Positions 5,061 through 46,750 of a stretch of 64,000 bases of DNA are shown here, in pieces; the stretch's first letter is position 1; each line of letters begins with the position of its first letter. A model generated the notes under the pieces. The model was given only the letters and a program-made list of their open reading frames with translations, was not told the DNA's origin and made no database searches. Origin of the DNA: Thermaerobacter sp. FW80 (GTDB taxonomy: Bacteria > Bacillota > Sulfobacillia > Thermaerobacterales > Thermaerobacteraceae); NCBI RefSeq assembly GCF_004634385.1, contig NZ_CP037895.1, forward strand, positions 1,339,245-1,403,244, read 5' to 3'. The position numbers and the translations under genes were made by a program.

Positions 5061-5250
5061 TTACCTGAAACATCGTCATCTGTTTCAGGCAGCCGATCCT
5101 CACGGATCGGCAGTGCCGGTCTTACCCGACCATGTGCCGGTGCCGGCTTCCCGCTTCCTCCGGGACCGCCTGCCAGGTGGCAGGTCTTCCATCCCGTCCA
5201 CGGGCGTTTAACGTCTCCGGGCCACTCCCGGCGACGGCGGCCACGAGGGC
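5061..5250 (-). ncRNA. Candidate omega RNA (TnpB guide RNA) at element end
   Basis: In IS200/605 and IS607 elements TnpB uses a guide RNA made from the 3' part of tnpB and the element end, with the guide taken from the flank. Here the end downstream of tnpB holds two perfect hairpins: 5064-5072 with 5081-5089 (9 bp, loop 8) and 5092-5099 with 5104-5111 (8 bp, loop 4). Transcription leftward would add CGGTTGGAGGCCATGTTCAT (complement of 5041-5060), protease-gene sequence, as guide. The upstream limit given is a guess; the structure is seen, the function inferred from the family. Confidence 0.4.
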
Positions 5251-17363: not shown

Positions 17364-17446
17364 GCGAGGGTGCTGGAATTGGCAGACAGGCACGTTTGAG
17401 GGGCGTGTGGGTTTATCCCGTGCGGGTTCGAGTCCCGCCCCTCGCA
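17364..17446 (+). tRNA. tRNA-Leu (anticodon GAG)
   Basis: Acceptor GCGAGGG (17364-17370) pairs with CCCTCGC. The anticodon stem CACGT/GCGTG encloses TTGAGGG, giving anticodon GAG (reads CTC and CTT). A long variable arm and the T arm GGGTTCGAGTCCC are present. The CCA end is not encoded. Confidence 0.94.
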
Positions 17447-17454
17447 CCGGTTCG

Positions 17455-34037: not shown

Positions 34038-35042
34038 ATGCCGGTGCCGTGGCGTGCCGGCCCGCTGCGGCGGGCGCCCGTCGTGGCCACCCTCGTCGGA
34101 CTGCTGGCGGCCGCCCTGTGGGCGGGGGTCGTCTCGAGCGGACGGCCCCTCCCGTCGGCCGGCTCCGCCCGCGACCCGGCGGGCTGGGCGTTCCGTGACG
34201 ACCTCGGCCAGCGGGTCCGCCTGCCGGCGCCACCCCGGCGCATCGCCTGTAGCGGCCAGGACTTGTGCGACCTGGCCCGGGCGCTGCTGGGGGAGGGGGC
34301 GGTGACGGAGCTGCCGGCGGGGATGGAGGAGCAGCACCTACGGCGGCGTGCGGCCGATCTGGTGCTGCTGCCCGCCGTCACCCGGCAGCCGGGGTTGGCC
34401 CGGCGGCTGCGGGCCCGGGGCTGGCCGGCGGCGACCCTGGTCTGGACGGACGTGGAGGGACTCCCTGCGGCCGCCCTCCGGCTGGCCGGCTGGGTCAACC
34501 GGCGGGACCGCGGCCAGGAGCTGGCTGCGACCTACGCCCGGCGGCTGGCGCGGATCGAGGCCGCGTTGGCGACCGTGCCGTCGTCCCAGCGGCCGCCGGT
34601 GCTGGTCCTGGCGTGGGATCGTCCTCCCGTCTGGGCGGGCCCGGGCAGCCCGCCGGCGACGCTGCTCGAACGCGCCGGCGGACGGACGGCGTCCGGTCAC
34701 GGGCGCGACCCAACCCCTGCGCGATCCCGCGGCGGCTGGGTCCACCTCCTGCGACGAGGGACCGGGCTCGCCGGCCCCGGGGCGTGGCTGGCTGGCGAGG
34801 AGCGCTGGCGCCGCAGTCACTGGCCGGCATCGACGCGGGTGGTGACGCCCCTGCTCCGCCCCATGGTGCCACCGGGGGGACCGCCGGCGGCGACCGCCCT
34901 CTACCTTCCCCCGGATCAGCTGCTGGGTGCCGGTCCACAGGCGCTCGACGGCCTGGAGCGCCTCGCGGCCTGGCTGCACCCCGACCGCGTGGACGCCGGT
35001 GACGCGCCGCTGCGCATGGTGCCGCTGTCGGTGATGGACTGA
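34038..35042 (+). CDS. Periplasmic-binding-like protein (BtuF/FhuD fold), signal-anchored
   Basis: 334 residues. A signal anchor (VVATLVGLLAAALWAGVVS) is followed by WAFRDDLGQRVRLPAPPRRI, the typical opening of class III ABC substrate-binding proteins for cobalamin, haem and siderophores. The rest keeps the pattern (ADLVLLPAVTRQPGLA, RDRGQELAATYARRLARI, PPVLVLAWDRPPVWAGPGSP) but with few conserved side chains. No permease or ATPase gene is nearby, so it may be an orphan binding protein, or a diverged one with another role. The start at 34038 has a modest GGGGGC site. Convergent with thiN, 7 bases apart. Confidence 0.7.
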   Translation: MPVPWRAGPLRRAPVVATLVGLLAAALWAGVVSSGRPLPSAGSARDPAGWAFRDDLGQRVRLPAPPRRIACSGQDLCDLARALLGEGAVTELPAGMEEQHLRRRAADLVLLPAVTRQPGLARRLRARGWPAATLVWTDVEGLPAAALRLAGWVNRRDRGQELAATYARRLARIEAALATVPSSQRPPVLVLAWDRPPVWAGPGSPPATLLERAGGRTASGHGRDPTPARSRGGWVHLLRRGTGLAGPGAWLAGEERWRRSHWPASTRVVTPLLRPMVPPGGPPAATALYLPPDQLLGAGPQALDGLERLAAWLHPDRVDAGDAPLRMVPLSVMD

Positions 35043-45958: not shown

Positions 45959-46243
45959 TCAACGGCTCCCGGCGCCGGCCCCTTGCCCCTTCGCGCTGGC
46001 TCCGTCCTCGAGCGTCCGCTCGATGGCCTCGCGGTTGCGGCCGAAGCCGCGGAACACCTCGCCGTCGATGACCACCGTGGCCGTGACGCGGCTCTGGTAC
46101 CGGTTGACCAGGCGCTCGTAGGCCTCGGGGTCCTTCCGCACGTCGTAGAGGGTGAAGTCGACACCCCGCTGGCGGAGGAACTCCTCCGCTTGGCGGCAGT
46201 CGGCTCACCCGGGTTGGACGTAGAGCTCGACCCGCTTGGGCAT
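45959..46243 (-). CDS. Glutaredoxin-like protein with in-frame UGA, probable selenoprotein
   Basis: 94 residues if the UGA at 46207-46205 is read as selenocysteine (U). ATG at 46243 follows GGGAGGCG. The sequence is MPKRVELYVQPG-U-ADCRQA then EEFLRQRGVDFTLYDVRKDP, RVTATVVIDGEVFRGFGRN. In glutaredoxins this position is the first cysteine of the CxxC active site (YTTPGCPYC); here it reads U-A-D-C. The frame before and after the UGA is the same, both sides are clearly glutaredoxin, and a hairpin with GU in its apical loop lies 16-33 bases after the UGA. Uxx-type glutaredoxin-like selenoproteins are, to my recollection, a recognised family. Alternatives: a sequencing error for TGC, or a dead gene. 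Role: thiol-selenol redox chemistry in the cytoplasm. Confidence 0.8.
46166..46196 (-). promoter_or_regulatory. SECIS-like hairpin after the UGA codon
   Basis: Counting from the UGA, bases 16-22 (GCGGAGG) pair with 27-33 (CCTCCGC) around AGTT, which puts GU at +24/+25. A lower helix (bases 9-12 with 36-39) closes below a CAA/CA internal loop. Bacterial SECIS elements have a short stem with an exposed GU about 16-30 bases past the UGA. Confidence 0.65.
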
Positions 46244-46750
46244 GGTCTCGCCTCCCTTCGGGGTGGCGCGCGGCCCCCAGCCCCCGCCCCTGTCCACCGG
46301 GGGCTCCAGGCCCAGGATGGGCCTTGCCTTAGGATGGGCCTCGCCGCCCGTTCTCCCCTCCGCCGGTCTGGCGGCTCCTTCTCCCTCACGGAAGGGACTT
46401 CCTTCCCGGGCCGCATCATCCCGCGGACCGGCGCATAGGGTTGTCCCCGCGGGGCCCCGCGGGGGCGGCCCCCGGTCGACCCGAGGGCATCCGGGCCCGT
46501 GAGCCAGCGGGTCGCATCCCCGGCGGCCCGCTCCCCGGGGCCCGGCGACGGTCTTCCCGCGGCCGGGGAGGAGCGGGCCCCGGGGCGCTCCGGCGGCGCG
46601 GCGGCCCGGGCAGGCCGCCGCGCACCGCGCCGCGCCGCCGCCCAGCTGGGTGCACGGGCCCCGACCCAGCCGGGTGCGCGGGCCCCCACCCAGCCGCATG
46701 CACGGGCCCCGACAGCCGCACGCACGGGTCCCCCCAGGGAGGTGTTGGCC
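46244..46750 (+). other. 507-bp leader before the GH2-like gene, with 24-bp repeats
   Basis: No separate gene is supported. At 46643-46735 a 24-bp unit (CAGCCGGGTGCGCGGGCCCC-GACC) is repeated about four times; in the GH2 frame it reads as an 8-residue repeat (GARAPTQP-like), so a longer protein start cannot be excluded. A near repeat of GGATGGGCCTTGCC/GGATGGGCCTCGCC lies at 46315-46345. Confidence 0.55.

Follow-up and report, generated by a model that had tools for sequence, protein, structure and literature searches.

Does the hairpin that follows an in-frame UGA in a small gene of Thermaerobacter sp. FW80 serve as a SECIS element, or is it a by-product of the GC-rich codons that it overlaps? 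The gene lies on the minus strand of the window, i.e. the whole 64,000-nt stretch of DNA that was analysed, and coordinates below are those of the window (Table 1). Read across the UGA, the translation is MPKRVELYVQPG-U-ADCRQAEEFLRQ..., in which U13-A-D-C16 would form the active-site UxxC motif of a glutaredoxin. Judging from sequence comparisons, we give a probability of about 0.93 that the hairpin is an ordinary bacterial SECIS in a UxxC glutaredoxin mRNA, lying inside the coding region after the UGA.

Table 1. Positions of the glutaredoxin gene, its predicted SECIS element and RNA features elsewhere in the window
Feature	Positions	Strand	Details
Sec-containing glutaredoxin-like gene (predicted)	45959..46243	minus	94 codons; ATG 46243-46241; stop TGA 45961-45959
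In-frame UGA, read as selenocysteine	46205..46207	minus	codon 13; motif PG-U-ADC (UxxC)
Likely ribosome-binding site AGGGAGG, 5' of ATG	46251..46257	minus	inferred, read from the sequence
Putative SECIS upper stem-loop GCGGAGG-AGUU-CCUCCGC	46172..46189	minus	fold; arms identical in 3/3 UGA orthologues; GCGGAGG 46189-46183, loop AGUU 46182-46179, CCUCCGC 46178-46172
Whole element including lower helix CCGC/GCGG	46166..46196	minus	fold; lower helix not conserved; CCGC 46196-46193 pairs with GCGG 46169-46166; internal loop of 3 and 2 nt
tRNA-Leu(gag)	34483-34574	plus	ARAGORN; possibly false, with no Rfam listing at the gathering score
Another tRNA-Leu(gag)	17364-17448		
Transposase-2 RNA (Rfam RF03015)	5088-5157	minus	70.8 bits

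The product scores 46.8 bits with the Pfam Glutaredoxin profile PF00462 (cut-off 22.9, E 3.4e-12), and the gene is the sole match to that profile at E 0.001 in the genome; the evidence on the hairpin supports its reading as a selenoprotein. Annotation that is unaware of Sec may end the gene at the UGA, and the standard code would indeed make that codon a true stop; alternatively it could be a sequencing error, and either way the downstream frame would be decayed or the gene truncated. We consider this extremely improbable. Homology to relatives runs on past the UGA on both sides, two congeneric species carry the same UGA (loci L019 and L021, 69-72% identity), the aligned codon is TGC (Cys) in the relatives L020 and L070, and the genome carries Sec machinery. 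The UGA gene is thus very probably a UxxC selenoprotein glutaredoxin, a known kind of selenoprotein: the available text of the Sargasso Sea survey reports such Sec-glutaredoxins (PMC1088965), and that of PMC1794560 lists them in Geobacter sulfurreducens, Alkaliphilus and Moorella.

The genome encodes all of the host machinery expected with a bacterial SECIS: tRNA-Sec (anticodon TCA), SelA, SelB with the winged-helix domains wing_2 and wing_3, and SelD, whose own gene has an in-frame UGA at GKGG-U-GCK (L094, UGA at locus base 1531). A candidate SECIS is present downstream of that selD UGA, with a 7-bp stem, GGCGCAG-GUG-CUGCGCC. As a further selenoprotein comparator we sought formate dehydrogenase alpha, finding one match below cut-off, without an internal stop. 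By analogy with what is known of the mechanism in bacteria, SelB loaded with GTP and Sec-tRNA(Sec) would bind the upper stem and AGUU loop through its C-terminal winged helices as the ribosome meets the UGA, selenocysteine would be inserted at residue 13 in place of termination, and the ribosome would then unwind the hairpin and read its bases as the codons for AEEFLR; a redox function of the product is likewise inferred from what is known of other bacteria.

The structure itself agrees with the earlier description of a 7-bp GC-rich stem capped by an AGUU loop: folding returns it at the same positions, with bases that also read as the codons AEEFLR, and the element does begin 9 bases past the UGA, in that pairing of the lower helix starts at the ninth nucleotide after it. 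In a fold of 51 nt, counted from the last UGA base onward and including it, both helices form, at -27.5 kcal/mol (z -2.81; 3/200 dinucleotide shuffles are equally stable). The bacterial SECIS model, as given in the available text of PMC13188914, has a stem of 4-16 bp, a loop of 3-9 nt with G in at least one of its first two positions, 16-37 nt from the UGA to the apical loop, and a minimum free energy of -7.5 kcal/mol or lower. Our upper stem-loop has 7 bp and 4 nt, with GU at loop positions 2 and 3, a spacing of 22 nt between UGA and apical loop, and -20.8 kcal/mol in a constrained fold; the UGA that it accompanies aligns with TGC in L020 and L070. The 4-bp lower helix, also part of the earlier description, forms in this gene, but among the four orthologues this gene alone has all four of its pairs.

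How unusual is such a hairpin here? The segment is coding and GC-rich, so we took synonymous recodings as the null, with codons drawn for the same peptide at the frequencies of three neighbouring ORFs. The complete 7-bp stem arises in 878/20,000 recodings (4.4%; P about 0.04), and an equally stable 48-nt fold in 219/5,000. The same three ORFs, which are high in GC, contain 1,695 codon positions; 19% of these are followed by a stem of 7 bp or more when the whole permitted space of the model is allowed, along with G-U pairs, and 5/1,695 have a 7-bp stem at the exact geometry. Taken alone, the hairpin is mildly unusual and constitutes modest to weak evidence. These rates lend something to the view that GC-rich A-E-E-F-L-R codons throw up the hairpin by themselves and that Sec insertion depends on something else, as does the fact that, in the Cys orthologue too, the peptide favours pairing (null mean 3.5 bp). 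It is comparison that makes the case for a SECIS, and the comparisons below leave the by-product explanation very improbable: the Cys orthologue breaks 2/7 pairs with the same peptide, UGA genes exceed their synonymous nulls while Cys genes do not, and double changes are in excess among UGA rows.

Of 154 genomes in a search of the class, 58 had a match (E 1e-6 or better). Besides the UGA orthologues L019 and L021, the genus contributes one more species, G137, which has only a 34%-identical match, L068, with Cys at the site. The sister-genus orthologue L020 carries TGC, though SelA is present in its genome. Both stem arms are letter-for-letter identical in the three UGA orthologues, this gene included. 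L020 encodes the same residues, AEEFLR, but its synonymous GCA and CGG codons are the ones that break the two pairs; this Cys relative has lost part of the hairpin. L070 (Cys, 59% identity) has no stem, but it says little because its peptide differs there (AEQFLK). A scan of named genomes with the glutaredoxin alignment, using one pattern with C at the Sec site and another downstream of the site, found two loci, both Cys, and no UGA form, with records near the window possibly omitted; one of them, L054, shows no difference from L020 in the stretch compared. Viral contigs yielded no relative, and the class around G452 yielded only G452 itself (1/72 genomes, 1e-10).

The overlap of coding and structure had been expected to reduce synonymous change. 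Among the three UGA orthologues, the conserved degenerate codons are identical in 6/6 cases within the stem and in 31/48 outside it, so that none of the six stem codons varies against 17/48 elsewhere; the direction is as predicted, but the contrast is small and not significant (Fisher P 0.09). Pairwise synonymous differences among the UGA genes are 0/9, 0/8 and 0/9 in the 31-nt segment and 9/53, 15/49 and 14/51 elsewhere. Comparison of each UGA gene with the Cys gene gives 3/9, 2/9 and 2/8 in the segment and 17/50, 17/49 and 15/45 elsewhere.

For a broader view we assembled a panel of 70 loci from part of the search hits, made up of the best 30 per search and 14 picked stretches, 12 of these picked because the hit table showed a TGA. 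A first pass aligned 61/70 at codon 13 and a more sensitive search added the other 9; dropping L054 as a duplicate of L020 left 37 UGA rows, 31 Cys rows and one Asp row. A stem was called when at least 5 bp, G-U pairs included, formed near the offset in any of four registers around a loop of 3-5 nt that has G in its first two bases. Such a stem is found in 25/37 UGA and 3/31 Cys homologues (Fisher P 1.2e-6, an optimistic value, as are the other P values, because the homologues share history and are not independent); the Asp row has a 4-bp stem. The smaller first-pass panel gave 20/31 UGA and 3/28 Cys rows. Mean stem length is 5.3 bp in UGA rows against 2.2 bp under the synonymous null, and 1.9 against 1.8 bp in Cys rows, with an individual P of 0.05 or less in 20/37 UGA and 2/31 Cys rows. 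The commonest form among the relatives approximates GAAAGA-GUU-UCUUUC, read as (K)EFL or EYL and then a serine codon, with the pairing one base out of step with ours. A looser screen, for a model-fitting hairpin of -7.5 kcal/mol or better at any offset, gives a weaker UGA contrast than does the count of stems at the offset (22/31 UGA, 11/30 non-UGA). Two Cys loci with TGT, L030 and L034, have a stem of 6 bp at the offset of the SECIS that resembles that of the UGA relative L047. It may have been left over from a Sec ancestor; the available text of PMC1794560 describes SECIS-like remnants in Cys genes that descend from selenoproteins.

Compensatory change, which the earlier note had proposed as a check, is absent among the four close orthologues and appears only at greater distance, in the register, one base away from ours, that most relatives use. 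We first considered 15 rows selected for having the stem, out of 20 such rows then known (L059 and four rows with a 4-nt loop were excluded): 5/8 pairs are changed on both sides, with 10 double-change cells against 1.6 when shuffled (0/500 shuffles as high). In all 37 UGA rows, unselected, the relatives' register has 30 double-change cells against 14.2 shuffled and 66.9% of cells paired against 59.1% (0/500 as high in each case), while double changes touch an unexceptional number of pairs, 7 against 5.9 (121/500). When scored in our own hairpin's register, the 37 UGA rows show no excess (7 double-change cells, 9.8 when shuffled). The 31 Cys rows have 17 against 17.0 in the relatives' register and 24 against 18.8 (44/500) in that of our own hairpin. 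The suggestion that this was a SECIS-like stem thus gains from several sides: the machinery in the genome, the fit to the model, the upper stem kept in all UGA orthologues and damaged in the Cys orthologue, and, among the wider homologues, the UGA-versus-Cys contrast and the compensatory changes.

The earlier note had named, as what would count against its proposal, UGA homologues with no stem-loop at this offset. Such homologues exist, all of them distant: 12/37 have at most 3 bp there (L037, L038, L058, L022, L060, L061, L057, L064, L027, L028, L033 and L043), while the close UGA orthologues all have the stem. We searched for SelA and SelB in 11 of the genomes with stemless genes, leaving out the twelfth, G115 (L043). 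SelA is found in 10/11 (not in G089). All 11 have a SelB match, of which 7 reach model position 575-579 of 581; in G090, G089, G054 and G087 the piece listed ends at 345-369, within open frames of 630-727 aa. A truncated SelB as the companion of stemless UGA genes finds no support, given that every genome searched has SelB and that its C-terminal end is seen in 7. A model-fitting hairpin (-7.5 kcal/mol or better) lies elsewhere in 5/11 stemless genes, L028, L033, L061, L057 and L064. Compared with synonymous shuffles, the fold energies of the 11 stemless genes do not stand out (P 0.14-0.72), by a test that is insensitive, since L047, which has the stem, gives no signal either (P 0.80 and 0.35); L019, likewise stem-bearing, gives 0.10 and 0.08. 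From the SelA and SelB findings, the hairpins elsewhere and the absence of any shuffle standout, we take it as probable that the stemless homologues remain Sec genes and use a different signal, perhaps a SECIS placed at another offset or one of another class. A bolder proposal is that (A/V)-(E/K)-E-F-L codons double as the SECIS apical stem-loop throughout the phylum while some of the stemless minority rely on a SECIS that the published model does not cover; we think this unlikely, and its odds are lowered because 5/11 stemless genes have a model-fitting hairpin elsewhere. The present gene is an ordinary member of the set whose codons double as a stem-loop.

Among known systems, the nearest NCBIfam model to the product is the YruB-family glutaredoxin TIGR02196, yet the score of 67 bits is under the cut-off of 88.55, and the protein of this genus is therefore a divergent relative. 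The Uxx-star selenoprotein NF041212 is likewise a small glutaredoxin-like (seleno)protein, and the product scores 45.4 bits with it, under the curated cut-off of 66; to our knowledge Uxx-star proteins are without a second Cys, which the present protein has. Compared with the candidate selD SECIS of the same genome, the glutaredoxin hairpin shares a 7-bp stem after the UGA. The selD loop begins GU and lies 33 nt from its UGA, versus 22 in the glutaredoxin gene, and there another hairpin precedes it. With the Sec-containing glutaredoxins the product shares the glutaredoxin domain (PF00462) and the UxxC motif, and Cys homologues of these exist, according to the available texts of PMC1088965 and PMC13188914. 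Finally, set against the bSECIS consensus as far as the available text of PMC13188914 gives it, the upper stem-loop falls within the model in position after the UGA, stem, loop, G-U, spacing and stability, with no difference; the extra, non-conserved lower helix is a feature of this gene.
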